This document shows, piece by piece, positions 26,874-43,188 of a stretch of DNA of 51,689 nt. The notes under the pieces were generated by a model. It searched no databases. It saw only the letters and a program-made list of their open reading frames with translations, and was not told where the DNA came from. The position numbers were made by a program, and so were the translations under genes. The DNA is taken from the NCBI GenBank assembly GCA_036397555.1, contig DASWIS010000021.1, positions 1-51,689 of the forward strand, in the 5' to 3' direction. The DNA comes from Candidatus Zixiibacteriota bacterium. GTDB lineage: Bacteria; Zixibacteria; MSB-5A5; WJJR01. Each line of letters begins with the position of its first letter. Within the stretch, counting starts at the first letter, position 1.

Positions 26874-27998
26874 CTACAAGTCGGTAGAGAACTGGAGGGC
26901 AACGATCTCATCATCGAGGTCGAGACCGTCCGGGAGATCGGAGAACCGCACAATCTGAGTCACGAGCTTGATCCGCGACTTTTCATTGAGTCGGCGTCCC
27001 AGGCCCGCTTCGAACCGCTGCATTGGGTAGTCCCAGCGGGCGCCATCGCCTTTTGCATCGGCCAGTTCTGAGAAGGTGAGGAAGTCGGCCCTGCCGGCGA
27101 GATACCACCAGGTGGCCAGCGAGTATTTCACGTCGACATACCCGCCGACGCTCTCCAGGTCGCCCAGCGTCGGATGTTCGAATCGATTCACGAGGGCCTC
27201 GGCATAGGCGTCCCAGTGGCCCGAGGACGCATGAACGAGCCCGCCGCCCGTCAACTGCTGGTAGTCTTCCAGTCGATTCCCGTCCGGCAGCGATCCGTTG
27301 AGCTTGGGGCTCAGATACGGACCCATCGCTCCCCAGATTCCGACCGTCAATTCCGGTGCGGGAGTAACGCTCAGATGCGCGGCGATGTTCGGATACTCGT
27401 AGATGATCGCGCGAGCCGGCTGTCCGAGGGCGCCATTGGTCAGAGCCACGCCGCAATCGACCTGGCCCAGGGTCGCATACGCATGGACGCCCGTGTTCCA
27501 GCAAAAGTCGTATACGATGGGCGTGTATTCCGATGTTCCGCGATATGCGAGCAAATCTTCGACGCTCTGGAGCGCTCCGGGATTCAGTGAGGTCTTGTAG
27601 TGAAAGATCGCGGGCACCGACACCAGCGGGTTTTTGTCGTCGTATGTTCTCTGTCCCCAGAGCCCGACTGGAGTCGGGATCAATCCCGCTTCAAGATGCA
27701 CCCGCGGTGTGTGATCGTACCGGATGTAGGCGCCATACTGCGAGAAATTATAGGAGGTTGAATTCATGAAGATCTGAACAAACCCGGAGAGCCGTTCTGT
27801 GATCGTTGCATCGAGGAACACACGTGCGCGAAAGGCATCGAACGGCGAATACCCGGCATTGGAGACGTTGAACCAATCGTCGGTCTTATTGCGCGCCACG
27901 GAGGCAAACTGGCCCGATACAAAGAACTCGGACCGCGCCGGTTGGGCCGATGCCAGGATGGCCAGCGCGAGCGTCAGTTCAGGCAGCCACTTGTTCAT
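26874..27998 (-). CDS. Outer-membrane porin-like beta-barrel protein
   Basis: 374 residues from the ATG at 27998, which begins a signal peptide (MNKWLPELTLALAILASAQP, cleavage after ARS). The mature chain alternates short amphipathic strands (FFVSGQFASVARN, GFVQIFMNSTSYNF, YGAYIRYDHTPRVHLEAGLI, GLGRRLNEKSRIKLV), the pattern of phosphate- or general-porin-like barrels, and stops shortly after a typical last strand. The start overlaps the end of the histidine kinase gene by 20 bases, so the two are translationally coupled. With the cupredoxin gene ahead this makes a three-gene operon. The solute carried is unknown. Confidence 0.75.
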   Translation of the reverse strand: MNKWLPELTLALAILASAQPARSEFFVSGQFASVARNKTDDWFNVSNAGYSPFDAFRARVFLDATITERLSGFVQIFMNSTSYNFSQYGAYIRYDHTPRVHLEAGLIPTPVGLWGQRTYDDKNPLVSVPAIFHYKTSLNPGALQSVEDLLAYRGTSEYTPIVYDFCWNTGVHAYATLGQVDCGVALTNGALGQPARAIIYEYPNIAAHLSVTPAPELTVGIWGAMGPYLSPKLNGSLPDGNRLEDYQQLTGGGLVHASSGHWDAYAEALVNRFEHPTLGDLESVGGYVDVKYSLATWWYLAGRADFLTFSELADAKGDGARWDYPMQRFEAGLGRRLNEKSRIKLVTQIVRFSDLPDGLDLDDEIVALQFSTDL

Positions 27999-29769
27999 TC
28001 TCAGACACCCCTGATTCGGCATGCTGTGTTTCTCTCTCCGCGGTCTTGCCGTTCGTCGCGAGCGGCAGCGCGATGATGAAGGTCGTCCCCTCGCCCGCCT
28101 CCGACTCGACGCGGATCGTGCCGCCGTGATCGTCGACCGCCTTCTTGGCTACGGCCAGACCCAATCCCGTACCCTTGGTCTTGCCGAACGTGGCGAACGG
28201 CTCGAAGATGCGCTGATGCAACTCGGCGGGAATCCCGGGCCCACAATCGGCAATGCTGATTTGGGCGACGCCCCCGTTCGCGCGCGATCGGATGGATATG
28301 ACACCGCCCTCTGTCAGAACGTCCAGGGCATTGCTCACAATGTTGTCGAGCGCGCGCCGAATCTTGTCTTTGTCGATGCCGGCGATCGTATCGGCCTGGC
28401 CGGAGAACTCGATTTTGATGCCGCGCGATTCGGCAATGTGATTCCAGGCGTCGACCGCCTCGGCGAGGAAGGCGTCGACGTTGGTCGGACGGCGCGCCAT
28501 GCGCGTCTCGCCGCGCGCGAAGTCCAGCAGATCCTGCGTCATGCCCATCATTCGCTCCAGCTCGAAATGGACCATCGCCGCATAGCGTGCGCGCTTGTCC
28601 GCGGGCATCTCACGGTCGGTTGTCAGGTCGAGCACGCCCCGGATCACCTGCATCGGCGTCTTGAAGTCGTGGATGATGCTGGATGCCATCTTGCCGATGA
28701 CCGCGAGCCGCTCGGCGTCGAGCTTCTCCGCGTTGGCTTTACGGATCGCTTCCATCTGGGCCGCCAGTTCATGGCGCATGCTGTCGACTGCGTCGGCAAC
28801 CATCCTGAACTCGTCGTGCCCTTTGTGTGTGACTTCATGCCCGTAGTCTCCACGGGCCACCGCCTCCACGGCCGCGACCAGTTGTGGAACCCGCGCCGTT
28901 ACTCGCCGTGCGACGGTCAGCGACACCGCGACAGCCAACGCCAGTGCCAGCGTGCCCAGCCACAGCATCGTGGCGCGCAGGTCGGCCACCGGCGCTTTCA
29001 GCCGTTGATCCAATGACATCAGAATGGCATACCGTGCCGGTGCATTGGCGTGCAGCAGTCCGGAGCGAAACAGAAAGCGCTCACCCTCGACCGTGACCGT
29101 TTGCGCCGATCCCGATTCCGCGTATTCCGACGATTGTGCCCGGATTTCTGCGATCAGCTTATTGGAGCGCGGGTCGGCCAGCGTCGAACCGAAGACGAGC
29201 GCGTCGTCGTGGAAGATGACATCGGCTCCCGCGACCCGTCCCATGCTCGCCGCCAGTCCGGCATCGACACGACGACCCAGCGCGACATACCCCATCGTCT
29301 CGGAGCCGACCATGACCGCCTGCGATGAGAGCAGGTACAAACCGTCGTCCAACCTCAGATAGGTGCCTTTCGGAGGGATCGAATCCGGCCAGTCGAGCGA
29401 AAGCACTCCCTCCTGCGAGTCGAGGTGCGCCAACTTGTCTCCCCGTGCATCGCAGACTAGGAAGAGCTGGCTGCCGGAGAGGCGCTGGAATTGACGTGCG
29501 ACCGGGATGGCCGTATTGGGATCGGATTCGGCGACTGCGGCAAAGAAACGTGGATCGTTGGCGACGATGCGTGCCTCGGCACTGAGGTATTCCTGGCTCT
29601 CGCGCCGCCACTCGGTGAAGGTCGATTCAGCGCTGATCAGTTGCTCGGCGATCTGACGGACAAGGTCGCGTTCCAACTGGTAGCTGAGCGCCACCAACGC
29701 GGAACCCAGCGCGATGATCGACACGCTCCCGGCGACGAGAATGAATTTGACTCGCAGCGTCAGATGCAT
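27979..29769 (-). CDS. Membrane sensor histidine kinase
   Basis: 596 residues. A first membrane helix (FILVAGSVSIIALGSALVAL), an outer sensing domain of about 240 residues of cache type (ARIVANDPRFFAAVAESD, YLRLDDGLYLLSSQAVMVG), a second helix (ATMLWLGTLALALAVAVSL), a HAMP segment, the HisKA box SSIIHDFKTPMQ with phospho-acceptor H367, and the ATPase motifs DNIVSNALDVL, ADCGPGIP and KGTGLGLAVAKKAV. All catalytic parts are present. There is no response regulator next to it; the neighbours are a periplasmic cupredoxin (upstream, nine bases away) and a porin (downstream, overlapping), so the signal may be copper, redox state or a solute entering through the porin. Confidence 0.93.
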   Translation of the reverse strand: MHLTLRVKFILVAGSVSIIALGSALVALSYQLERDLVRQIAEQLISAESTFTEWRRESQEYLSAEARIVANDPRFFAAVAESDPNTAIPVARQFQRLSGSQLFLVCDARGDKLAHLDSQEGVLSLDWPDSIPPKGTYLRLDDGLYLLSSQAVMVGSETMGYVALGRRVDAGLAASMGRVAGADVIFHDDALVFGSTLADPRSNKLIAEIRAQSSEYAESGSAQTVTVEGERFLFRSGLLHANAPARYAILMSLDQRLKAPVADLRATMLWLGTLALALAVAVSLTVARRVTARVPQLVAAVEAVARGDYGHEVTHKGHDEFRMVADAVDSMRHELAAQMEAIRKANAEKLDAERLAVIGKMASSIIHDFKTPMQVIRGVLDLTTDREMPADKRARYAAMVHFELERMMGMTQDLLDFARGETRMARRPTNVDAFLAEAVDAWNHIAESRGIKIEFSGQADTIAGIDKDKIRRALDNIVSNALDVLTEGGVISIRSRANGGVAQISIADCGPGIPAELHQRIFEPFATFGKTKGTGLGLAVAKKAVDDHGGTIRVESEAGEGTTFIIALPLATNGKTAERETQHAESGVSENEQVAA

Positions 29770-31777: not shown

Positions 31778-32641
31778 TTACAAGGCAAAGCTCAATTTGA
31801 AGACGTAGCGGCGCGCGCCGGCGTTATCCGTGGCGTCGCCGCCAGTCTCATAGGAGAAATGATAATACAATTCGGCCAATGCCGCACCGACTGCCGCGCC
31901 GACGGCGACGTCGGTAAAGTAATGACGGTCGGCATGCAAACGCGACAGCGCGACGATGCCCGCCCAGCCGAATGAGATGGCCGGTGAGAGCCAACGGCCG
32001 GTCTCATACTCGTCGCGTCTCCACTCACTGCGCATGTGGCGGCGGAACCGCTTGTTAAAAAAAGCCGCCGCGAAGAACGCCGTGGACGAATGGCCGGAGA
32101 AAAACGAGCGCCGGTGGTCAGGATCCCCTGGTTCCAAACCCGGCGGGAATTCAGCGCCGGCCGCGCGGTAGGGGCGTTCCCGTTGCACGAACGACTTGCC
32201 GATGCGAGTCAGTCCCGCCGTCGCCGCCCAACCCGATAAAAACATCGGGATGTCGCGGGAGAATTCGCGTCGGTCCGCATCGATTGCCGCCACTCCGATC
32301 GCAGCCATGGTGGGGGTCAGGACGCTGCCGAAACGGTTATCCAGAAAGTTGGAGCGCCATTCGTCGCCGGGGTGAATCGCGTTTCGCATGATTCGGTCGA
32401 GCGGGTTGAGTCGGAACTCCGACGCCGATTCGATCGCCGTTTCCGACCGTGGCAGGAAGTACCCCAGGAGGCAAACCGAGGCCGACGCGCCGATGATCAG
32501 CGCTTCCTCGCCATCACTCAGATCGCGCAGGTTGCTCTCTGCGTGAGCGAGCGGAGCGCTCGCCATCACGATGGCAAGCAGCCATACGGCGGGGCCACGC
32601 CCGGACAGGCAGCGAGCGGGCATCGTGGGCGGTAAGCACAT
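31778..32641 (-). CDS. PAP2-family membrane phosphatase
   Basis: 287 residues from the ATG at 32641 (an ATG at 32623 is possible; the frame reaches 32749 but that would run into the divergent promoter). A signal-like first helix (AVWLLAIVMASAPLAHA) is followed by the three PAP2 motifs: KSFVQRERPYR, FFSGHSSTAFF and SRLHADRHYFTDV. These form the vanadate-haloperoxidase-like active site of lipid phosphatases such as PgpB or undecaprenyl pyrophosphate phosphatases. The polar spacing and signal point to action on the outer side of the inner membrane. Substrate unknown. Confidence 0.88.
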   Translation of the reverse strand: MCLPPTMPARCLSGRGPAVWLLAIVMASAPLAHAESNLRDLSDGEEALIIGASASVCLLGYFLPRSETAIESASEFRLNPLDRIMRNAIHPGDEWRSNFLDNRFGSVLTPTMAAIGVAAIDADRREFSRDIPMFLSGWAATAGLTRIGKSFVQRERPYRAAGAEFPPGLEPGDPDHRRSFFSGHSSTAFFAAAFFNKRFRRHMRSEWRRDEYETGRWLSPAISFGWAGIVALSRLHADRHYFTDVAVGAAVGAALAELYYHFSYETGGDATDNAGARRYVFKLSFAL

Positions 32642-32704
32642 GCGGCATCCGGAAAGCGATCCGGAAGGCGACAATCGCGACAAGGACCCCTGGATGCAAA
32701 GGAA

Positions 32705-32734
32705 TTGTACAGCAGAACCCGCCCGCGGTATATT
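32705..32734 (+). promoter_or_regulatory. Possible promoter of the transporter/two-component run
   Basis: TTGTAC (32705-32710) and TATATT (32729-32734) are 18 bases apart, with the start codon at 32789. The -10 box matches five of six bases, the -35 only three. Confidence 0.45.
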
Positions 32735-32788
32735 AGATCGTTTCCTCACGATGCCGGATCAACTCCCCGCCGCGCCACCTTCCAGACT

Positions 32789-35560
32789 ATGTCATCCTGG
32801 TTGAAAGGGTTCCTCGACGTCCGGGAGGGAGAGCGTGCCGGCACGGCGGCGATGTTCGTGTACATCCTCCTGGTGATTGCGGTCCTGGTGATCGTCAAGT
32901 CGGTCCGCCAGGCGCTGTTCCTGCAGAGCTTCGGCGCCGCCAGTCTGCCGTATGTCTACCTGTTGATCGCCTTCGTGGCCGGGGGTGTGGCGGCGTTGTA
33001 CCAGCGCTTTTCGCGCAATGTCGCCGTCGGACGGCTGATCGTCGGCACGATGCTCGTGTTGGTCGCCAACCTGGTTGTGTTTCGCTGGCTGGTCTCCTAT
33101 GAGTGGGGTGCGCTGGCTTATGTGCTCTATGTATGGGTCGGCGTCTACGGGATTCTCGCGACCGCGCAATTCTGGATGCTCGCCAACTACGTATATGACC
33201 CGCGTCAGGCGAAGCGTCTGTTCGCCTATCTCGGAGTTGGCGCAACGCTCGGCGGCATTGTTGGCGGCTACGTCACCCAATACGGCGCGGGACTGGTCGG
33301 CACCGAGAATCTGCTGTTGATCGGGGCCGCGCTGCTGGGCGGATGTGCCGCGTTGGGCGTCTATCTCGCCGCCAGCCAAAAGAAGGCCATTGTCGAAGCG
33401 GCGCGCGCCAAACGATTCAAATCATCTTCGGTGGAGCAGACCGCCGGAGGGTTCCGGCTGATTTGGCAGTCGCGATATCTGAAACTGGTGATGGTGATCA
33501 TCACGCTGAGCATCATCATCGCCACCGTCGTCGACAACCAATTCTCGTTCGTTGTCGAGGAGCATATTCCCACCAAGGACGGCAAGACCGCATTCTTCGG
33601 GCAGTTTTTCACGTGGCTGGGATGGATTGCGTTTCTCACCCAGTTTTTCCTGACCGGACGGCTGTTGCGTCGCTTCGGCGTCGGCCTGACAATGGCCATA
33701 CTGCCATGGGCGATGTTCCTCTCCTCGGGCGCATTCGTTCTGTTCCCGATGATGGCAACCGGTGTGGCGATCAAACTGGCCGATGGCACCTTTCGTTACA
33801 CGACGCACAAGGGATCGTTGGAACTCTTGTATCTTCCCATCCCCATCGTGGTTAAGAACAAGACCAAAGCGTTCATCGACATGTTCACCGACCGCTTTTC
33901 CAAGGGAATTGCGGCGCTCCTGGTGCTGCTGATGACATCGGCGCTGGGTTTTCACTATGGCGCTCTCTCGTGGGTACTGATGGGATTGTCACTTGTCTGG
34001 GTGGGCGTGACCATTCTGGCGCGGCGCGAATACGTTGCGGCGTTTCGCGACTCGCTGCTGCGTCGACGCATCGACGAGGACGCGCTCATCATCTCGCGGA
34101 CCGACGCGGCAACGGTTGGCGCGCTGGCCGAATCGCTCGACCGCGCACAGGGTGCCTCACTGTCCCGTGCCCTCGACCTGGTGACCGGCGTGCGCTCGTC
34201 GCTGCTCATCGCGCCCTTGATCCGCATCGCTCACGCATCCGACTCCGCCGTCGCCTGTCGAGCGCTGGATCTGCTGGCCGAGCAGGAAGGTGACATTCCC
34301 GTCGATCAATTGCGCGATCTGCTTGATTCCGACGAAGTGGAAGTCGTCGGGCGGGTCCTGCGCTTGTCCTGCCGCGACGCGGGCAATGTCTCACCGTTGA
34401 AACTGGGGCTCTATTTCGCCGACGAGCGGCCGCAGGTTCGTCTGGGCGCGATCATGTGTTCGCTGGTGTGGGGCGGCGCCGCCGGCGACATGATCGATCC
34501 CGAAGCATTGGAGCAGTTTCTGCTGGATTCGGCGACACCGCAGCAAGCCGGGCAGATGGAGCGGATGCTCGCCAAGTTGCTTCGGGTCCTGCCGGTTGCC
34601 GATGGGACCGCCGAACGGTACATCCTGCGGTTCCTGAAGAGCGACGATCCGGCGCTGCGAGGCGAAGCGATCGCGGCGGCGGGGCGCCTGAAACCCCGCT
34701 GCCTGGTCGAACCGCTGATTGCCGTCTGTGCGGATCGTCGTGTGCGGCATCGCGTCCGCGATGCGCTGGCTGCCTATGAAGAGGCCGCGTTGGGCACGCT
34801 GGAAGACTATCTGCGCGATGAGGCGACGGACCGGCGCGTACGGCAATACATTCCACGGATTCTCGAACGCATCCCCGTGCAGCGCTCGGTCGATTCGCTG
34901 GCGGCCATGCTCGAGGATCCCGATGAACGCGTCCGCTTCTCGGCGCTGCGAGCGCTGGGGCGACTGCGCGCGTCTCACTCCGAACTGGATTACGCCAATG
35001 AGCGCGTCGAGCGACGACTCGGCGAGGAAATCCGCAAGGCGTATCGTTACCAGGGGTGGTTGTTGGCCAGCGCGGACGGCGAGCGGAGTTTGCTCTTGCG
35101 CAAGACACTCCGTGAGAAGTCGCACAAAACGCAGGATCGTGTCTTTCGCCTCCTGGCCATGAAGCATCCGCCGGCCGAAGTGTACGCGGCGTCGCGGGGG
35201 CTGCTCTCGCCCAATGCCCGCATCCGTGCCAATGCCGTGGAGTATCTCGACAACTTGCTGGTTGCGCCGCAAAAGCGTTGGGTCTTAGGGCTGGTCGAAG
35301 ACCGCCCGTCACGCGACGCGGTGTCGCGCGCACTGCGGGAATTCGGCGAGACTCTGGACGACCGTCGGGAGGCGTTGACACGGCAGGCATCGGGCGACGA
35401 TGACTGGCTGGCGGCATGCGCGCTGTATTCGATCTGGGAGGAACACGAGCGCTCGTTGTATCATCTCATTACCCGCGATGTTGCCTTGCTGCCCGCCGGG
35501 CGCTTTGCCCTCACGCGGGAGACGATGCAGGCGCTGCGCGGACGTGTCGCAGCCGAATGA
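32789..35560 (+). CDS. ADP/ATP-translocase-like (Npt/NTT) transporter fused to HEAT repeats
   Basis: 923 residues from the ATG at 32789; the frame opens at 32705 inside the promoter region. Residues 1-420 form about twelve membrane helices of the nucleotide-transporter/MFS type (AGTAAMFVYILLVIAVLVIVK, YVLYVWVGVYGILATAQFWM, GVGATLGGIVGGYV, DGTFRYTTHKGSLELLYLP). Residues 450-920 are soluble, leucine- and arginine-rich helical pairs of HEAT-repeat type (DSDEVEVVGRVLRLSCRD, DPDERVRFSALRALGRLRAS). In many environmental bacteria this fusion continues into a cyclic-nucleotide-binding domain; here that domain is the next gene, 63 bases on. The transported molecule in such proteins is not established. 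It opens the signalling run to 40068. Confidence 0.85.
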   Translation: MSSWLKGFLDVREGERAGTAAMFVYILLVIAVLVIVKSVRQALFLQSFGAASLPYVYLLIAFVAGGVAALYQRFSRNVAVGRLIVGTMLVLVANLVVFRWLVSYEWGALAYVLYVWVGVYGILATAQFWMLANYVYDPRQAKRLFAYLGVGATLGGIVGGYVTQYGAGLVGTENLLLIGAALLGGCAALGVYLAASQKKAIVEAARAKRFKSSSVEQTAGGFRLIWQSRYLKLVMVIITLSIIIATVVDNQFSFVVEEHIPTKDGKTAFFGQFFTWLGWIAFLTQFFLTGRLLRRFGVGLTMAILPWAMFLSSGAFVLFPMMATGVAIKLADGTFRYTTHKGSLELLYLPIPIVVKNKTKAFIDMFTDRFSKGIAALLVLLMTSALGFHYGALSWVLMGLSLVWVGVTILARREYVAAFRDSLLRRRIDEDALIISRTDAATVGALAESLDRAQGASLSRALDLVTGVRSSLLIAPLIRIAHASDSAVACRALDLLAEQEGDIPVDQLRDLLDSDEVEVVGRVLRLSCRDAGNVSPLKLGLYFADERPQVRLGAIMCSLVWGGAAGDMIDPEALEQFLLDSATPQQAGQMERMLAKLLRVLPVADGTAERYILRFLKSDDPALRGEAIAAAGRLKPRCLVEPLIAVCADRRVRHRVRDALAAYEEAALGTLEDYLRDEATDRRVRQYIPRILERIPVQRSVDSLAAMLEDPDERVRFSALRALGRLRASHSELDYANERVERRLGEEIRKAYRYQGWLLASADGERSLLLRKTLREKSHKTQDRVFRLLAMKHPPAEVYAASRGLLSPNARIRANAVEYLDNLLVAPQKRWVLGLVEDRPSRDAVSRALREFGETLDDRREALTRQASGDDDWLAACALYSIWEEHERSLYHLITRDVALLPAGRFALTRETMQALRGRVAAE

Positions 35561-35623
35561 TTGCCGTCTCTGATTGACGGGCACCGATCCCGACAGGTGA
35601 ACCTTGGCCCCAGGACCATCCCA

Positions 35624-36064
35624 ATGCTGACGACCATCGAACGAGTTCTCGCCCTGCAAAAGAATGAGATCTTTGCCGAGGTTTCGACCGAAGGACTGGC
35701 GCATTTGGCGGCGATCGCGCACGAGGTCGAGTTTCAGCCCGCAGAATGGTTGTTTCACGATGGGGAAATCCCCGACGCCTGCTACCTGATTCTGGCCGGC
35801 ACCGTAAGCATGACACGTGCCGGACAGACGGAGCTGTCCGTCGGCCCCGGCGAGGATATCGGTGTGTGGGCGCTGTTTGACGGCGAACCGCGCGTGTTTG
35901 CAGCGCGCGCCGCATCGAATACACACGCGTTGAAAATCGAACGTGAAGACTTTTATGATCTGCTGGCTGATCACACGGATATCATCCAGACGCTCTTTCG
36001 CACCATTGTGCGCCGCATCCGTCGTCTGCTCGAGGAACGCGGCGTCGTTGCCGGGCCCGGGTGA
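35624..36064 (+). CDS. Cyclic-nucleotide-binding domain protein
   Basis: 146 residues from the ATG at 35624; the open frame back to 35561 starts at a TTG and looks non-coding. The CAP/CRP-type beta roll is visible: LQKNEIFAEVSTEGLAHLA, EWLFHDGEIPDACYLILAGT, VGPGEDIGVWALFDGEPRVF and the C-helix LFRTIVRRIRRLLEERG. The phosphate-binding cassette (GEDIGVWALFDGEPR) lacks the usual E-x2-L-x2-RSA pattern, so cAMP binding is uncertain. There is no DNA-binding domain. It lies between the HEAT-repeat transporter and the histidine kinase and probably senses a ligand for one of them. Confidence 0.85.
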   Translation: MLTTIERVLALQKNEIFAEVSTEGLAHLAAIAHEVEFQPAEWLFHDGEIPDACYLILAGTVSMTRAGQTELSVGPGEDIGVWALFDGEPRVFAARAASNTHALKIEREDFYDLLADHTDIIQTLFRTIVRRIRRLLEERGVVAGPG

Positions 36065-36088: not shown

Positions 36089-38278
36089 ATGCATACCATG
36101 TTTCAACGTCTGCTGTCGCGACTCAATCTGTACGCCCCGCATCGCGCCGAACGCGATCCGGGGTTCGCGCAGTACCTCGCGGAAACCACGCGCCGAGGCA
36201 TGCGTCTGGGTGGTGTCCTGGGGATGATCGGCCCGCCCATCTACGCCTTTGGGACGGCACTTGCCCTGCATTGGGACATGACCATGTCGGTCGATGCCAG
36301 GAGCGGCACGCTGGCTGTGTGGGTCCCGTTGAGTGCCAGCGCGGTCGGCATCGCGATTCAGGGGCTGTCGTTCTGGCCGCGCGCGGTCCGATGGGGGCGA
36401 CCGATCGTGGGCGTCGCGCTGATGGCGATCGCGTACCTGTCGAGTCTGGAATTTGCCGCAGCGGGTGTGCACCATCCTTCGAAGTTTGGCATCCTGAGTC
36501 TGCTGATGCTCGTCGGCATCAGCACGATGCCCTTTCGCGCCTGGCAGACGACGATCCTGGGGTTTCTCCTGATGATGACGTACGGCCTGACCGCGCTGGT
36601 GATTCCCGGGCAGCACGGACATAACCCGCTGGACGTTTTTCCCGAACTCCCCGTCTTCATGTTGACGCTGACGGTTATGTGCGCCGGGATCAGCGCCCTG
36701 CTGTACAGCATCCGACACCGCGACTATACGGTGCGCCGTGAGGAGGAGTCTCTGCGCCACAAGCTGCAGGATTCCGAGCGGCGGTATCGTTCCATTTTCG
36801 AGGATTCGTCCGACGGGTTGTTCGTTTACAGCGAGGCGACATCGGGGTTCCCGCTGGTCAACGCCGTGACCGAACACATCCTGGGACGGTCCGCGGAGGA
36901 GCTGGCGGCCACGCACTTTTCCAAGGTGATTCATCCCGACGATTTGGCACGTGTTGCGGGGATTCACGCGGCGCGCGTGCGGGGTGAGCCGGCGCCCTCG
37001 CGCTACCGGCTCAAACTCAAACGCCCCGATGACGACGCGCCGGTCATCTGCGAGATGACCATCCACACGACCGGCGATCCCTCGATCACCGCCGGGGCGC
37101 TGCGCGACATCACCGCCCAGGTCAAACTGGAAGAGGAAAACGCGCAGTTGGCGCAGCTTTCGGAGACCAACCCGTTTCCGGTGCTGCGCTTCGACGACAT
37201 CGGGGGCCTGCTGTACATGAATCCCGCCGCCCGCCGGTTCCCTTCGGAGATCGGGCATCCGGAAGCATCGATCACCGATCTATTGCCGCCCGACTTTGAG
37301 CGGCGCATCGCGCGGTTGATCGAGTCGGACACGACAGTGATCGATGCGCGCCACGACTTCGACGACCGGGTCTTTTCGATCACATATCGGCCGCTGCCGG
37401 CGACGCGGGAGATATTCGTCTGGATCGTCGACGCGACCGAGCGCACTCGCGCCGAGGAGCAAATCCGCGCGTATGCCTTCCAACTGGAGCAGGCCAATCA
37501 GGAGTTGCGTGAAGCACAGGCGCAACTGGTCCAGTCGGAGAAGATGGCGGCGCTGGGCAATCTCGTGGCGGGCGTCGCCCATGAGATCAACACGCCGCTG
37601 GGTTCGATCCATGCCAATGCCGACGTGTCGCGTCGTGCGCTGGAACTGCTGGCCGCGGTCGACTCAGGCGGCGGCGACAACCAGCGAATGGCGCAGGCCG
37701 TGCGTATCCTGACGGAGTCGAACGAGACGACACGCACAGCCAGCGAAAGGATCATCCGAATCGTCCGGTCGCTGCGCAATTTCGCGCGTCTGGATGAAGC
37801 CGAATTCAAGGACGTCGATCTGCACGAGGGCATCGAATCCACCCTCACGTTGGCGCATCACGAATACAAGAATCGCATCGAAATCGTCAAGGAATACGGG
37901 TCGCTGCCGCCGGTCCGCTGCAATCCCAACCAGATCAATCAGGTCATTATGAATATCCTGGTGAATGCGATTCACGCCATCCATGACAAGGGGACGATTA
38001 CGATCCGGACGTCCGCCGATTCCGACGGTGTCCATGTTGCCATCAGCGACACCGGGGTCGGGATTCGTCCCGAATATCTGCCGCGCATCTTCGACCCGGG
38101 ATTCACCACCAAGGGCGTCGGCGTCGGCACCGGTCTGGGACTGTCGATTGTTTACAAGATCGTTCAGTCGCATGGCGGCAAAATCGATGTGAAAAGCCAG
38201 CCAGGAGCCGGGAGCACCTTCACGCTCACCCTCCCGGTGGGTTCGGCGAAGCGATCCATCGACGGAGAGGGAACTTGA
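36089..38278 (+). CDS. Membrane PAS histidine kinase
   Basis: 729 residues. About six N-terminal membrane helices (residues 38-210, for instance LGGVLGMIGPPIYAFGTALAL and LPVFMLTLTVMCAGISALLY) replace a periplasmic sensor. Two PAS domains follow (SERRYRSIFEDSSDGLFVY near 225; SETNPFPVLRFDDIGG near 360), a coiled coil, the HisKA box GVAHEINTPLGSIHAN with phospho-acceptor H498 and the ATPase lobe (NQVIMNILVNAIHAI, SDTGVGIRPEYLPRIFDPGF, GTGLGLSIVYKIV). The ATG at 36098 is an alternative start. Its stop overlaps the TTG start of the receiver-phosphatase gene by four bases, so that protein is the likely partner. The C-terminal domain resembles the family of kinases that pair with multi-receiver circuits. 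Confidence 0.93.
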   Translation: MHTMFQRLLSRLNLYAPHRAERDPGFAQYLAETTRRGMRLGGVLGMIGPPIYAFGTALALHWDMTMSVDARSGTLAVWVPLSASAVGIAIQGLSFWPRAVRWGRPIVGVALMAIAYLSSLEFAAAGVHHPSKFGILSLLMLVGISTMPFRAWQTTILGFLLMMTYGLTALVIPGQHGHNPLDVFPELPVFMLTLTVMCAGISALLYSIRHRDYTVRREEESLRHKLQDSERRYRSIFEDSSDGLFVYSEATSGFPLVNAVTEHILGRSAEELAATHFSKVIHPDDLARVAGIHAARVRGEPAPSRYRLKLKRPDDDAPVICEMTIHTTGDPSITAGALRDITAQVKLEEENAQLAQLSETNPFPVLRFDDIGGLLYMNPAARRFPSEIGHPEASITDLLPPDFERRIARLIESDTTVIDARHDFDDRVFSITYRPLPATREIFVWIVDATERTRAEEQIRAYAFQLEQANQELREAQAQLVQSEKMAALGNLVAGVAHEINTPLGSIHANADVSRRALELLAAVDSGGGDNQRMAQAVRILTESNETTRTASERIIRIVRSLRNFARLDEAEFKDVDLHEGIESTLTLAHHEYKNRIEIVKEYGSLPPVRCNPNQINQVIMNILVNAIHAIHDKGTITIRTSADSDGVHVAISDTGVGIRPEYLPRIFDPGFTTKGVGVGTGLGLSIVYKIVQSHGGKIDVKSQPGAGSTFTLTLPVGSAKRSIDGEGT

Positions 38279-39492
38279 GCGGCAAAGACCGGCGGCCCTC
38301 AGCGGTCATGATTGTCGACGACGAGGAGATCGTCACGCGTTCGATCGCCAATCTGCTGGCACTGGAGACCGACTACAAGACGCTGCCGTTCCAGCAACCC
38401 CGCGAAGCGTTGGACGCTGTGCGACGCGAACGGATCGACTGCGTCATCACGGACTTCCTGATGCCGGAGATGGATGGGCTGGAGTTTTTGCGTCGGCTGC
38501 GCCGGATGGCGCCGGACGTGCCGGCGATCATGCTGACCGGATATGCCGACAAGGAAAGCGCCATTGCGGCGGTCAATGAGGTCAATCTCTACCAGTACCT
38601 GGAAAAGCCCTGGGACAACGATCATCTGCAACTGGTGATCCGCAACGCGGTCAGCCACCGGACGCTCCAGCAGGAACTGGTCGAGCGCCTGCGTGAATTG
38701 GATTCGGTCCTCAAGGATCGGGACACGTTGCGGCTGACGACGGAACACATCGAACAAGAGCTGGCGCTCGCGCAACAGGTGCAGCAGTCGATTCTGCCGC
38801 GTGACCTCGACGGCGCCGGAGCGGTCCGGTTCTACCACCGTTACTACCCCACCGGACGGCTTGGCGGCGATTACTTCGATGTCATCTTCACGGGTGAGAA
38901 TCGCTTCAATGCCATTGTCAGCGACGTGGCGGGCCATGGGGTCGCTGCGGCCTTGGGGACAATGCTGGTCAAAGTGATTTTCGCCGACGCCTCGCAGCGT
39001 GGCCTCGGCTGCTCCGAAATGCTCATCGAGATGAACGACCGTCTCGTGCGATTCCTCCCGCAACAGCAGTTCGTCACCGCCTTCGTTCTGCAGGTTGATC
39101 TGGACGCCGGTATCGTCTCCGCCGCATCGGCGGGCGGGCCGCATCCGATCATCCTGGGCTCCGGGAACGGCGTCCCGGTCGAACAGTGGCATCTCAACGG
39201 TCTGCCGCTGGGTGCTTTCAACCGAGACATTTTCCGCGAGCCGGAGGCGCAATCACGACCGTTGCGGAGCGGCGATCGCATACTTCTCTATACCGACGGT
39301 TTGCTGGATGTCGAGATCGAATCGGGGCAGTCGCGCGAGCCGCACGAAATCGCCGCCTTTGTGGACGGCTTGCGGAATCATCGCGGTGAGGAGTTTTTGG
39401 AGCGGCTGGTGGACCGTTGCGGCGCTCGACGGTCCATGCTTCCCGATGACATCAATCTGCTGCTGATCGAGGCACAGGATCGTCCGCGATGA
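38275..39492 (+). CDS. Response regulator with PP2C (SpoIIE/RsbU-type) phosphatase output
   Basis: 405 residues starting at TTG 38275, with GGAGAGGGA just upstream and a TTGA overlap with the kinase stop. The receiver domain (1-125) has D60 (CVITDFLMPEMDG), LTGYAD and EKPW. A coiled coil near 140-170 leads into a SpoIIE-type phosphatase domain (170-405) with QQSILPRDL, GGDYFDVIF, SDVAGHGVAAALGTM, SAGGPHPII and DRILLYTDGLLDVE. Such proteins dephosphorylate anti-sigma-factor antagonists in partner-switching; no such STAS or RsbW gene is visible here. Its receiver is strikingly similar to that of the next gene. Confidence 0.94.
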   Translation: MSGKDRRPSAVMIVDDEEIVTRSIANLLALETDYKTLPFQQPREALDAVRRERIDCVITDFLMPEMDGLEFLRRLRRMAPDVPAIMLTGYADKESAIAAVNEVNLYQYLEKPWDNDHLQLVIRNAVSHRTLQQELVERLRELDSVLKDRDTLRLTTEHIEQELALAQQVQQSILPRDLDGAGAVRFYHRYYPTGRLGGDYFDVIFTGENRFNAIVSDVAGHGVAAALGTMLVKVIFADASQRGLGCSEMLIEMNDRLVRFLPQQQFVTAFVLQVDLDAGIVSAASAGGPHPIILGSGNGVPVEQWHLNGLPLGAFNRDIFREPEAQSRPLRSGDRILLYTDGLLDVEIESGQSREPHEIAAFVDGLRNHRGEEFLERLVDRCGARRSMLPDDINLLLIEAQDRPR

Positions 39493-39582: not shown

Positions 39583-40068
39583 ATGGACATCAGCACAAAT
39601 GACCACCGTGTCGTCGCCGTCGTCGACGATGAGCCGATGGTCCTGCAGAGCATCAAGAACTTCCTGAATCTGGAAACCGACTACGAAGTGCTCACGTACA
39701 CATCGCCGAAGTCGGCGATCGACGGGCTTCGCGAGCAGCCCGTGGATGTCATCATCTCCGACTATCTCATGCCGGAGATCAACGGGATTGAGTTTTTGTT
39801 GCAGATGAAGGAAATGCAGCCGCAAGCGACGCGCGTCCTGCTCACCGGCTATGCCGACAAGGAAAACGCGATTAAGGCCATCAACGACGTCGGACTGTAT
39901 CAGTACATCGAAAAGCCCTGGGAAAACGAGGACTTGCGCCTGGTCATCCGCAACGCGATCGAAAAGCGCATGCTGCTGAAACGCCTCTCCGAAAAAGTCG
40001 CCGAACTGGACCGCGCCTCGGCCGCCTTAAAGGGCGTCTATTCCGACCTGATGAAGGCCTTCAAGTAG
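39583..40068 (+). CDS. Stand-alone receiver protein
   Basis: 161 residues from the ATG at 39583; AAGAGAG precedes it, and the longer frame from 39505 lacks support. The receiver domain carries VVDDEP, phospho-acceptor D60 (VIISDYLMPEINGIEFL), the threonine of LLTGYADKENAIKAI and lysine in YIEKPWENEDLRLVIRNA. A C-terminal helix (residues 125-160) probably forms a coiled coil. Without an output domain it may act as a phosphate relay or competitor. The alignment with the previous protein's receiver is nearly gap-free with the same 60-residue spacing to the aspartate, pointing to local duplication. Confidence 0.92.
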   Translation: MDISTNDHRVVAVVDDEPMVLQSIKNFLNLETDYEVLTYTSPKSAIDGLREQPVDVIISDYLMPEINGIEFLLQMKEMQPQATRVLLTGYADKENAIKAINDVGLYQYIEKPWENEDLRLVIRNAIEKRMLLKRLSEKVAELDRASAALKGVYSDLMKAFK

Positions 40069-40077
40069 CTTCGCTCT

Positions 40078-41403
40078 ATGGGTCTGTTCCGGCGCGCACG
40101 TCGTTCGCACGGTCACCCGGTTCTGTGGCCGTTGTGGGCTGTTTTGCTCGTCTCATTCACTCCGGAACTTGCGACTTCAGCCGGCGAGACGGATTCGTCA
40201 CGTACGTCAGGAGCATCGCGCTCCCGGCACGACGCGCTCGACTATGTCTTTGCCGTCCCCAGTTTTGCCCTGCAGCTTCCCTTCCGGGTGTTCGGAGTCG
40301 TGGTTTCCGGGCCGGTCAAGCTCGTCGAGGACCAGGACTTTCTCGAATCGCTGAAGTCGGTTTTCTCCTTCGACGTGCCCTTCGGCCTCCGACCCGTAGT
40401 CGGATCGTCATCGCGCACCGGACTGCGCGGCGGGCTTCAGTACCGGGCACGAAGCGCACTGGCCACCGGTGTTCCGCTGCGTCTGAAGGGGACCATCTCG
40501 ACGAATCGATACGAGTTTTTGTCGCTGCGAATCGGCGGCCCGAGTCTGTTCGAGTCGCCGTTCGGAATGCAAGGGGAGATCGGAGCACGACGCGACACGC
40601 GCGAGCGCTACTACGGTTACGGACCGTCGTCCTCGGCCGACGATGAATCCAACTACGAACGGCGGGGCGGCTTCGGCAATGTGCGCGGTTTCTGGCAGAT
40701 TACCGATGCGCTGGCGGCTGAAGGATTCGGTGAATACCGTCATGTGACCCCCGGCGACGGGCGCGGAAGGACAACGATCGGAGAACGCGATTCGATCGTT
40801 GCCCGCTTTCCCGACGACGACCTTTTCGGACTGTATGCCACGCTCGACCTCCACGAATTCGGCGGCGCGGTCGTGCTCGACTGGCGCGACATCAAGGGCT
40901 CGCCGCGTCGCGGCGGGCGCGATGAACTGCGAGTTTCCTACGTCGGCGGTGATGGCCCCGGCGACACGACCGTCGGGTTTTGGCGCATTCGCGGTGAGGT
41001 CTCCCAGTACATCGAGTTGTGGCGCGGGCGCGTATTCGGTCTGCGCGCGGCCGCACAGCATCTGGAACCGGGCAACGGCACCCGAATTCCGTTTTACGAA
41101 CTCTCACGGTTGGGCGGCTCCAACTCTCTGCGCGCCTACCGCAGCGGACGTTTTACGGGGCGGGACATGGTGCTCTTCTCCGCCGAGTACCGATGGCCAG
41201 TGTGGCGGGCGATCGACGCCTTTCTGTTTACCGATCAGGGACGTGTCTTCGACGATATCTCCGAGGATTTTGAGTTTTCCGGTTTCCGCTCCGCCTACGG
41301 CGGCGGGCTGCGCGTATGGAATACAGGCGGCCATCTGGAGTTGACGCTCGCCAAGGGACGTGAGCAGTTTCGTTTTTACCTCGCAGCGGGTGAGGAGTTT
41401 TGA
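40078..41403 (+). CDS. Omp85/BamA-like outer-membrane beta barrel
   Basis: 441 residues with a signal peptide (WPLWAVLLVSFTPELATSA). There is no POTRA domain; the N-terminal 60 residues (YVFAVPSFALQLPFRVFGVV) precede 16 or so predicted strands. The end is characteristic of the Omp85 superfamily: ELSRLGGSNSLRAYRSGRF, FSAEYRWPVWRAIDAFLFTD, GGGLRVWN and a final strand. The last codons overlap the next gene (TGATG), so this barrel and the kinase-like lipoprotein are co-translated. A secretion or anchoring role for that partner is plausible but unproven. Confidence 0.82.
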   Translation: MGLFRRARRSHGHPVLWPLWAVLLVSFTPELATSAGETDSSRTSGASRSRHDALDYVFAVPSFALQLPFRVFGVVVSGPVKLVEDQDFLESLKSVFSFDVPFGLRPVVGSSSRTGLRGGLQYRARSALATGVPLRLKGTISTNRYEFLSLRIGGPSLFESPFGMQGEIGARRDTRERYYGYGPSSSADDESNYERRGGFGNVRGFWQITDALAAEGFGEYRHVTPGDGRGRTTIGERDSIVARFPDDDLFGLYATLDLHEFGGAVVLDWRDIKGSPRRGGRDELRVSYVGGDGPGDTTVGFWRIRGEVSQYIELWRGRVFGLRAAAQHLEPGNGTRIPFYELSRLGGSNSLRAYRSGRFTGRDMVLFSAEYRWPVWRAIDAFLFTDQGRVFDDISEDFEFSGFRSAYGGGLRVWNTGGHLELTLAKGREQFRFYLAAGEEF

Positions 41404-43130
41404 TGAGGCGGGCCACGCATCGCTTCGGAGTCGTAGCCGGAGGGATTGTGTCCGCCGGCATTCTCCTGGGCGGCTGCGCGTCGAGTCGGCCTTGGAGTCT
41501 GGAGCCGCCCCCTGCTGAGCAGAGTGAGATGCGGCCATTGCCGTCGGAGCCGTCGGAACGCGATCCGAGTCTCTATTGGGACGCGGTCAACCAAAGCTCG
41601 TTTTACCTGGTCGAAAACTCGCTGAACCTGGGCCGCCAGACCCGCAAACTCACCGGAAGTACGAAGGACGCGCACAATGCCGATGCGTGGGGCAATGTCC
41701 CCAACTCCGCCTGGTTTACCAATCGTCATGGCTCCAATCGCATGACACCCGATGAAATCCTGCGCGGCCCCAACACCATCGATGGTCCCGATACGACCCA
41801 CCCGTGGACGATCACCCGCGCCAAGACCGAAGGCGTAACCCCGGGGTTCTTCGCGCAGGACTCAAACGGCGTAACGTTCATCATCAAGTTCGACCCTGAT
41901 GGACATCCCGAACTGGCGACCGGGGCGGAAATGATCTCGACAAAGTTTTTCCATGCCTGCGGCTACAATGTCCCGGAGAATTACATTTCAGTTCTCGATC
42001 CGAACACGATACGCTTCAAAGAGGGTCTCGAGTATGCCGACCAAGGGGGCAATCGCAAGCCATTCACGCGCGATGTCTTAAACGAGGTTCTGCAGACAGT
42101 CGCCCGGCGCCCCGATGGCAAGGTGCGGGTCGTGGCCAGCCGGTTTCTGCCGGGAACACCGATTGGCCCATTCTCGTACAAAGGCACGCGCAAAGACGAC
42201 CCCAATGATTTCATCAATCATCAGCACCGGCGCGAATTGCGTGGTTTGAAGGTTTTGGCACAACTGGTCAACCACTACGACACCAAGGACCACAACACGC
42301 TGGATATCATCGCCGACGACGGCAACGGGCCGTACGTGCGTCACTACCTGATCGATTTCGGCTCGACGCTCGGCTCGGATGCGGACGAGCCCAAGCCGTC
42401 CTACAAGGGATACGCCTACACCCTCGACCTGGAGCAGGCGGTCGTCTCGCTCTTCACGCTTGGGCTGCGCCAGTGGTCTTGGGAGGAGGCATCATCGAAG
42501 GGGATGCCGCCGGCGGTAGGGTATTTCGAAAGCGAACGCTTCACCCCGCCGGGATGGAAGCCGCTGCACGCCAATCCCGCATTCGACAATGTCGACGACG
42601 AGGATGCCTATTGGGGCGCGCGCATCGTCGGTGCGTTTACCGAGGACGATCTGCGCGCCTGCGTTAAAGCGGCTGAGTACAGTGATCCGGCGGCGGAAGA
42701 GTATCTCGTGAAGACATTGATGGAGCGCCGCCGCAAGATTCTCGACTACTACTACGGCAATGTCAGTCCGCTCGATGCGTTTGCCATATCGCAAGAGGGT
42801 GGCGCGCTGGCTTTGTCGTTTGTCGATCGGTTCATCACCGACGGCCTGACGTCGGAGAACGCAGAATTCCGATACCGCGTCGGACACAAGGCCGGGTCGT
42901 GGGGATCGTACATATCGTTGTTGTCGGGTACATCGCTCACCCTCGACCAGAGCGCCGAACAGAAGATCGCCAATGCGCTGCAGTCCGCGCAGACACCAGA
43001 TGACCGCGTGTTCAACATTACGCTCCAAGCCCGTCATAACGGCCGTTGGCACAAGCCGGTTCGCGTCTACTTCTACTACGACGGGACGCCTGCGTCGGCA
43101 CGTCTTGTCGGCATCGACTGGGACGCATAG
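41403..43130 (+). CDS. Lipoprotein with atypical kinase-like catalytic motifs
   Basis: 575 residues from the ATG at 41403, overlapping the barrel gene's TGA. A lipoprotein signal ends in ILLGGC. The chain has elements of a protein-kinase-like (HipA, FAM20C or CotH type) fold in the right order: K162 in FIIKFDPDG (nucleotide lysine), an acidic helix TGAEMISTKFFHACGY, a catalytic-loop-like NHYDTKDHNTLDI with D293, D296 and N298, and LIDFGSTLGS with D318 of the DFG-like metal site. The asparagine-to-DFG distance of 20 residues fits that fold. The remainder (330-575) is helical, with a C-terminal beta part. The family was not recognised by name; kinase activity is inference. An extracytoplasmic kinase coupled to an outer-membrane barrel would be unusual. 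Confidence 0.6.
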   Translation: MRRATHRFGVVAGGIVSAGILLGGCASSRPWSLEPPPAEQSEMRPLPSEPSERDPSLYWDAVNQSSFYLVENSLNLGRQTRKLTGSTKDAHNADAWGNVPNSAWFTNRHGSNRMTPDEILRGPNTIDGPDTTHPWTITRAKTEGVTPGFFAQDSNGVTFIIKFDPDGHPELATGAEMISTKFFHACGYNVPENYISVLDPNTIRFKEGLEYADQGGNRKPFTRDVLNEVLQTVARRPDGKVRVVASRFLPGTPIGPFSYKGTRKDDPNDFINHQHRRELRGLKVLAQLVNHYDTKDHNTLDIIADDGNGPYVRHYLIDFGSTLGSDADEPKPSYKGYAYTLDLEQAVVSLFTLGLRQWSWEEASSKGMPPAVGYFESERFTPPGWKPLHANPAFDNVDDEDAYWGARIVGAFTEDDLRACVKAAEYSDPAAEEYLVKTLMERRRKILDYYYGNVSPLDAFAISQEGGALALSFVDRFITDGLTSENAEFRYRVGHKAGSWGSYISLLSGTSLTLDQSAEQKIANALQSAQTPDDRVFNITLQARHNGRWHKPVRVYFYYDGTPASARLVGIDWDA

Positions 43131-43160: not shown

Positions 43161-43188
43161 TTGACATCCCTGTTTTTCACCCTACAAT
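43161..43188 (+). promoter_or_regulatory. Near-consensus sigma-70-type promoter of the DtxR operon
   Basis: TTGACA (43161-43166), a 16-base spacer and TACAAT (43183-43188). The start codon of the regulator lies 37 bases after the -10 box. The DtxR-type protein may repress this promoter itself; no clear palindrome was found. Confidence 0.75.

Follow-up and report, generated by a model that had tools for sequence, protein, structure and literature searches.

What might a bacterial lipoprotein with the motifs of a kinase do beside an outer-membrane barrel, and from where could it obtain ATP? The question is raised by a stretch of 51,689 nucleotides from a Candidatus Zixiibacteriota bacterium (assembly GCA_036397555.1, contig DASWIS010000021.1, positions 1 to 51,689 of the forward strand; hereafter the window), in which the lipoprotein gene P0001 directly follows the barrel gene P0002. 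The periplasm is generally regarded as free of ATP, and phosphorylation at the expense of ATP has seldom been considered for compartments beyond the bacterial cytoplasm. Our best reading, to which we give somewhat better than even chances, is that P0001 would be an extracytoplasmic, lipid-anchored kinase acting beside its own barrel on ATP from a dedicated carrier. The enzyme would face the periplasm or the surface, and its putative substrate may be a protein, a glycan or a lipid. The central pair is as follows.

41403..43130, + strand: lipoprotein P0001, 575 amino acids, predicted HipA/CtkA/Fam20-like kinase fold (sequence, alignments, AlphaFold2 model, profile comparison)
40078..41403, + strand: barrel P0002, Omp85 superfamily without POTRA domains, 441 amino acids (PF01103 over residues 133-441, 1.3e-18)

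A preliminary description, made from the letters of the window alone, had proposed an extracytoplasmic kinase with an Omp85-like barrel for its outer-membrane export or anchoring, citing a lipoprotein signal, a TGATG overlap and a set of kinase-like residues. The open reading frame (ORF) coordinates (40078-41403 and 41403-43130) confirm the overlap, which is of one base: the ATG of P0001 lies at 41403, and the TGA stop of the barrel gene (41401-41403) shares its A. The signal ILLGGC likewise holds, with the lipobox Cys at Cys25 (numbered from the ATG at 41403). A whole-protein search of 58 related genomes, including the source genome, found the gene in 22, and the lipobox Cys is present in 21 of these 22 homologues, the remaining one being truncated. 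In a wider genome collection 247 stretches were confirmed, and the best 80 of them bear titles from Zixiibacteriota, Calditrichota, KSB1, Poribacteria, Latescibacterota, Acidobacteria, Marinimicrobia, Krumholzibacteriia, Gemmatimonadetes, Bacteroidota, Aminicenantes and others. A simple rule detects a lipoprotein signal in 58 of 80 homologues.

The candidate catalytic residues of P0001 are K162 in FIIKF, D293, D296 and N298 in HYDTKDHN, and D318 in LIDFGS. The predicted catalytic loop reads H291-x-D293-x-K295-x-x-N298, followed by D318-F-G, and K162 would be the beta3 Lys. Among the 22 homologues, K162 is kept in 21, D293 in 20, N298 in 22 and D318 in 20, and all exceptions fall in one divergent clade. 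In a set of 83 sequences, K162 and D293 are present in 83/83 and N298 in 82/83, residues that lay outside the patterns used to fetch sequences, and D318 is present in 83/83, a figure partly ascertained, since LxDF[GD] was itself part of a pattern used for fetching. All four residues are invariant in an alignment of 74 homologues, as the preliminary description would lead one to expect. Its fifth residue, D296, fared differently; the position holds D in only 34 of the 83 sequences, and D296 was rejected as a catalytic residue. The family signature is [H]-x-D-x-[K/R]-x-x-N ... h-D-F-G-[ST], and, judged from the alignments, the conservation of the motifs is greater than chance. In the clade of L020, L021 and L022 the kinase motifs have decayed (e.g., HVLFTPDN, GFD), and the protein, the lipobox and the adjacent barrel are kept; from its sequences, this is likely a pseudokinase-barrel pair.

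An AlphaFold2 model of P0001 (mbd20072c714b), built from 22 sequences, has a predicted local distance difference test score (pLDDT) of 85.4 and a predicted TM-score (pTM) of 0.87. A fold search of the Protein Data Bank (PDB) with this model recovered kinases rather than an unrelated fold, with CtkA (7.4e-5, probability 1.00) and Fam20C (1.6e-4, probability 1.00) at the top, together with Fam20A and DrFam20C1; HipT came at rank 22 and SidJ, a weaker match, at rank 28. In the model, K162 ends the strand 158-163, which is followed by the helix 171-186, D293 and N298 lie in a loop after the helix 282-289, and D318 follows the strand 310-316. As modelled, this is the usual kinase order. The protein also contains a DDPND/RRELRGL segment that is conserved in the family and a C-terminal beta-rich domain (~456-575).

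Neither as a single sequence nor as a profile does P0001 have a significant match in Pfam, NCBIfam or PDB sequences, and no Pfam or NCBIfam model exists for the family. The preliminary description had likened the residues to those of HipA, FAM20C and CotH kinases. HHalign links the P0001 family to HipA_2 sequences (probability 91%, E 1e-6), with FIIKF, HYDTKDHN (HYDxxxxN) and LIDFG set in register against the same motifs. HipA_2 (PF20613) is found below threshold in 17 of 74 homologues (best 7.9e-4), and P0001 itself has no HipA_2 match above the curated cut-off; by these comparisons the family is related to HipA_2 and is not a member. The cut-off of HipA_C (PF07804) is not reached, with weak matches in 6 of 74 homologues (best E 0.02), and for Fam20 and CotH P0001 has neither a Pfam match nor a PDB sequence match. 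The Pfam, PDB-sequence and profile results led us to reject HipA_C, Fam20 and CotH as families for P0001. From the model and the profile comparison we conclude that P0001 represents a new family, with predicted kinase activity, within the HipA/CtkA/Fam20-like branch of protein-kinase folds.

P0002 matches PF01103 with 68.1 bits against a cut-off of 24, in agreement with the barrel first proposed. No POTRA match is seen in Pfam, and the barrel domain starts at residue 133 of 441. The family shows the marks of Omp85: in the RG[YF] motif of loop 6 the Arg is kept in 64/68 and the Gly in 63/68 (P0002 reads LRAY at this site), and a DxG in a late strand has its D in 59/68 and its G in 63/68. The median length of the barrel across homologous loci is 444 amino acids. 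Omp85 proteins without N-terminal domains ("noNterm") have been surveyed, and a role in membrane-protein biogenesis was suggested for them (Heinz and Lithgow, 2014; PMC4104836).

With a distance limit of 250 bases, the barrel stands directly upstream of the kinase on the same strand in 70 of the 74 loci with enough sequence, across many phyla, so that the co-occurrence of the two genes extends well beyond the window. As for the other four, an Oligoflexia genome (L101:7869-10900) has the barrel downstream of the kinase; the upstream ORF of L036, apparently the same locus as L015, is recognised as a barrel by profile; in L087 the kinase reading frame was called too far upstream, across the barrel; and in L095 the second-copy barrel lies 254 bases upstream, past the limit. 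A profile survey found the barrel adjoining the kinase in all loci, the decayed clade included, except L018 and L114, which are both cut by contig ends. The barrel is thus a near-obligate partner of the kinase. Tandem duplicates of the barrel-kinase pair occur at L051:3590-9740 and L095:188-6708. The extracytoplasmic-kinase proposal of the preliminary description gains from the kinase fold, the ordered conserved residues, the lipoprotein signal and the co-occurrence with the barrel; for export or anchoring by the barrel, what speaks is the genetic coupling.

A lipid-anchored kinase must find its ATP outside the cytoplasm; an inner-membrane ATP/ADP exchanger could both supply ATP and retrieve ADP. 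A candidate lies upstream of the pair.

32789..35560, + strand: NTT/TLC-type ATP/ADP carrier fused to HEAT repeats, 923 amino acids (PF03219 2.8e-10, HEAT_2 2e-12)

Its start was taken as the ATG at 32789 (the listed ORF starts at 32705). The carrier scores 40.1 bits against PF03219 (cut-off 21) and aligns to solved ADP,ATP carriers (9j3n, 2.2e-7; 9j3j, 1.5e-6). A canonical copy, of 437 amino acids, is encoded at L036:10949-12262. Cyanobacteria and Chlamydiae are other groups with NTT-HEAT. Fusions of this NTT-HEAT type, followed by a gene for a cyclic-nucleotide-binding domain (cNBD), have been described in free-living bacteria, where their function was left open (Major et al., 2017; PMC5381601).

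Carrier and kinase are linked far beyond the window. By neighbour clustering, 35 of 80 loci have a TLC-type carrier (PF03219) at most six genes from the kinase; of the 42 loci flanked by 4 kb or more to either side, 23 do. In 132 genomes of the phylum, 30 have both genes, 5 only the kinase, 3 only the carrier and 94 neither (Fisher 3.5e-21); the Acidobacteria give 24, 3, 20 and 102, respectively (p 9.5e-13). The carrier is thus present in 30 of 35 kinase genomes of the phylum and 24 of 27 of the Acidobacteria, and also in 24 of the 26 kinase-bearing genomes reached through fetched loci. In 19 genomes the two genes lie 2-19 kb apart on one contig. When labels were permuted within families among the 58 genomes with known families, the observed agreement was reached in 0 of 20000 permutations, compared with 2641 of 20000 for GSDH, a control family from the same window whose raw association is also weaker (odds ratio 5.4, p 8.7e-5, versus ~188 for the carrier). 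Chance or a general phylogenetic signal was rejected on these permutations as the source of the co-occurrence.

Three of the five kinase-only genomes of the phylum (G027, G033 and G047) have motif-degenerate kinases, and this pairing of motif decay with absence of the carrier fits an ATP-supplying role, as a single event. In the carrier-only genome G001 the contig stops inside the barrel, past the carrier, the cyclic-nucleotide (cNMP) protein and both regulators, and in the kinase-only genome G051 it begins at the response regulator with a SpoIIE domain; both are apparently cases of a syntenic operon cut by a contig end. No homologue was found on a plasmid.

In the window, the carrier, the pair and the four genes between them form a run of seven genes on one strand in which no gap exceeds 90 bases, with a divergent phosphatase gene in front.

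31778..32749, - strand: PAP2-superfamily phosphatase, divergent (PF01569 3.9e-19)
35624..36064, + strand: stand-alone cyclic-nucleotide-binding-domain protein, 146 amino acids (domain search, homologues)
36089..38278, + strand: PAS-domain histidine kinase (domain search)
38275..39492, + strand: response regulator with a SpoIIE-type phosphatase domain (domain search)
39583..40068, + strand: stand-alone response regulator, receiver domain (PF00072 7.3e-26)

For the cNMP protein the ATG at 35624 was preferred to the TTG at 35561, matching homologue starts, and the ATG at 39583 was set to agree with the lengths of homologues of the stand-alone response regulator, which recur near the kinase in other genomes. 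The run is likely transcribed as one operon, with the carrier first and the kinase-barrel pair last. The same gene order is seen in a relative (G004) and, except for the histidine kinase match, in G001. Promoter-like matches count as weak evidence: the best (43161-43188) lies past the kinase and before a DtxR-like gene, a weaker one (32706-32734) precedes the carrier, and two more weak ones fall inside the run. Absent from the preliminary description, the upstream carrier, the cNMP protein, the histidine kinase and the two regulators change the reading of the system.

On the favoured reading, the lipid-anchored kinase would act in the envelope next to the POTRA-less barrel, with which it probably forms a complex. 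The carrier, in the inner membrane, would work as an ATP-out/ADP-in exchanger that fuels the kinase, and the cNMP-binding protein, the PAS histidine kinase and the two response regulators would control the unit. A nearby PAP2 or calcineurin-like phosphatase may reverse the modification. One of these phosphatases stands beside the kinase in 24 of the 42 loci that have 4 kb or more to either side, which is consistent with reversal of the modification or with processing of a substrate. Calcineurin-like phosphoesterases lie directly 3' of the kinase in many loci (L067:4087-5328, L036:9589-10947 and others), mostly without a PAP2 gene there, and two unrelated phosphatase types seem to fill one slot.

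Other observations concern the surroundings of the kinase and its distant relatives. A protein of ~410-450 amino acids, with no significant Pfam or NCBIfam match, is encoded directly 3' of the kinase in 11 loci (L062:4306-5529, L023:9672-10904, L083:9717-10988 and eight more). In the window, a 382-amino-acid ORF (26874-28022, - strand) without a Pfam match overlaps the end of a HAMP histidine kinase gene. The Acidobacteria also hold a distant secreted sister family of 329-414 amino acids, with a WDxKxxN-like loop and a D-x-G without Phe; it has no significant Pfam match, and the short loci that were read contain no barrel homologue. Its members are encoded at the following positions.

L124:824-1840
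L125:632-1618
L125:3085-4329
L126:831-1877
L127:590-1636
L128:435-1475
L129:637-1677

Several results weigh against the favoured reading. The kinase occurs without a carrier in G119, G178, G181, G225, G142 and G150, and the carrier without a kinase in G096, G115 and 20 Acidobacteria. The distant secreted cousins just described mostly sit in carrier-less genomes. The three decayed kinases all come from one bacterial family and so amount to one event. Regarding the fold, TM-scores to kinases are modest (0.53-0.55 on CtkA length), the root mean square deviation is ~10 Å over alignments that take in unrelated parts, and we infer the spatial clustering of K162, D293, N298 and D318 from their secondary-structure placing in the model. 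Profile comparison of HipA_C with the P0001 family gives an hhalign probability of 0.5%. The carrier matches TIGR00769 (2e-13) far below the NCBI cut-off for NTP/NDP exchangers, and none of the proteins of its class, NTT-HEAT, is characterised (Major et al., 2017; PMC5381601).

The carrier might instead serve another end, such as nucleotide scavenging or a general release of ATP, and be co-regulated with a genuine kinase-barrel unit without feeding the kinase. The Acidobacteria with a carrier and no kinase speak for this, as does the import of ATP by the characterised NTTs of intracellular bacteria (Major et al., 2017; PMC5381601), the NTT-HEAT class being uncharacterised. Kinase genomes are, however, seldom carrier-less in either phylum, genomes with decayed kinases lack the carrier, and the two genes are closely linked in the 19 genomes mentioned above; we consider a carrier of this kind unlikely. 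Kinase folds have also been reused for other chemistry, so that P0001 might be an AMPylase or a glutamylase (SelO/SidJ-like), or a pseudoenzyme that binds ATP and regulates the barrel. SidJ is indeed among the weaker fold matches, and the sister clade that lost its catalytic residues while retaining the protein and the barrel probably has a non-catalytic role for them. Yet all intact members keep the kinase order, the D293-x4-N298 spacing and the DFG, and while the adjacent ATP carrier fits ATP turnover, it would fit any ATP-using enzyme; a chemistry other than phosphorylation appears distinctly unlikely.

The barrel, for its part, might be an exporter of the Slam or PlpD kind and carry the kinase to the surface, where the kinase would act on extracellular ATP or on outside material. 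That barrel and lipoprotein are strictly paired and tightly coupled would suit such export, translocation of partners by Omp85 proteins is known from two-partner secretion and from PlpD (Heinz and Lithgow, 2014; PMC4104836), and the lipobox Cys is followed by A, G, S or T in 56 of the 58 lipobox-like homologues and by Asp in none. An inner-membrane carrier, however, would bring ATP to the periplasm and not to the surface, and Pfam recognised no POTRA or other periplasmic receptor domain in the barrel. We regard this form of export as very unlikely.

The lipid-anchored kinase with its barrel and ATP carrier is built from parts of known kinds, and the novelty lies in the system, undescribed as far as searched, and not in the fold. 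A literature search, which covered few subscription papers and no preprints, found no description that joins Omp85 with HipA, NTT-HEAT with a kinase, or periplasmic ATP export with a kinase. Slightly less than even chances are given to the broader proposal that many environmental bacteria run a dedicated, regulated envelope phosphorylation, in which NTT-type ATP export would feed a HipA/Fam20-like lipid-anchored kinase with its own POTRA-less Omp85 barrel. If true, this would be a bacterial counterpart, assembled from other components, of the secretory-pathway kinases of eukaryotes and the ATP supply that serves them. It would also give a function to the NTT-HEAT proteins of free-living bacteria, bearing on a role for NTT and NTT-HEAT proteins there that was left open (PMC5381601), and bear on the likewise open role of at least some POTRA-less Omp85 barrels (PMC4104836).

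Among known systems, the NTT-HEAT and NTT-HEAT-cNBD transporters share with the window the same domain order and the stand-alone cNBD gene; their description mentions no kinase (PMC5381601), whereas here a candidate ATP user can be named. The "noNterm" Omp85 proteins share with P0002 an Omp85 barrel without POTRA domains, and the survey of them again mentions no kinase (PMC4104836), whereas the P0002 type has one dedicated partner gene. CtkA of Helicobacter pylori is the best fold match of P0001, and, within the HipA/HipA_2 families (PF07804, PF20613), HipA_2 aligns with it in a profile comparison that sets Lys, catalytic Asp and DxG against their counterparts. Unlike HipA and CtkA, P0001 has 575 amino acids, a lipoprotein signal, the DDPND/RRELRGL segment, the C-terminal beta-rich domain and a barrel partner, and, unlike HipA, no HipB-like antitoxin was seen beside it. 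The CotH spore-coat kinases (PF08757) have an atypical bacterial protein-kinase fold; they share no Pfam match with P0001, and no CotH structure is among the fold matches listed. Fam20 kinases, which P0001 would resemble in its principle of action, act outside the cytoplasm on ATP that is supplied via a membrane exchanger, and Fam20A/B/C of the animal secretory pathway are the second-best fold matches. Unlike them, P0001 is a bacterial lipoprotein that shows no sequence match to Fam20, and its carrier is of the NTT rather than the SLC35 type.

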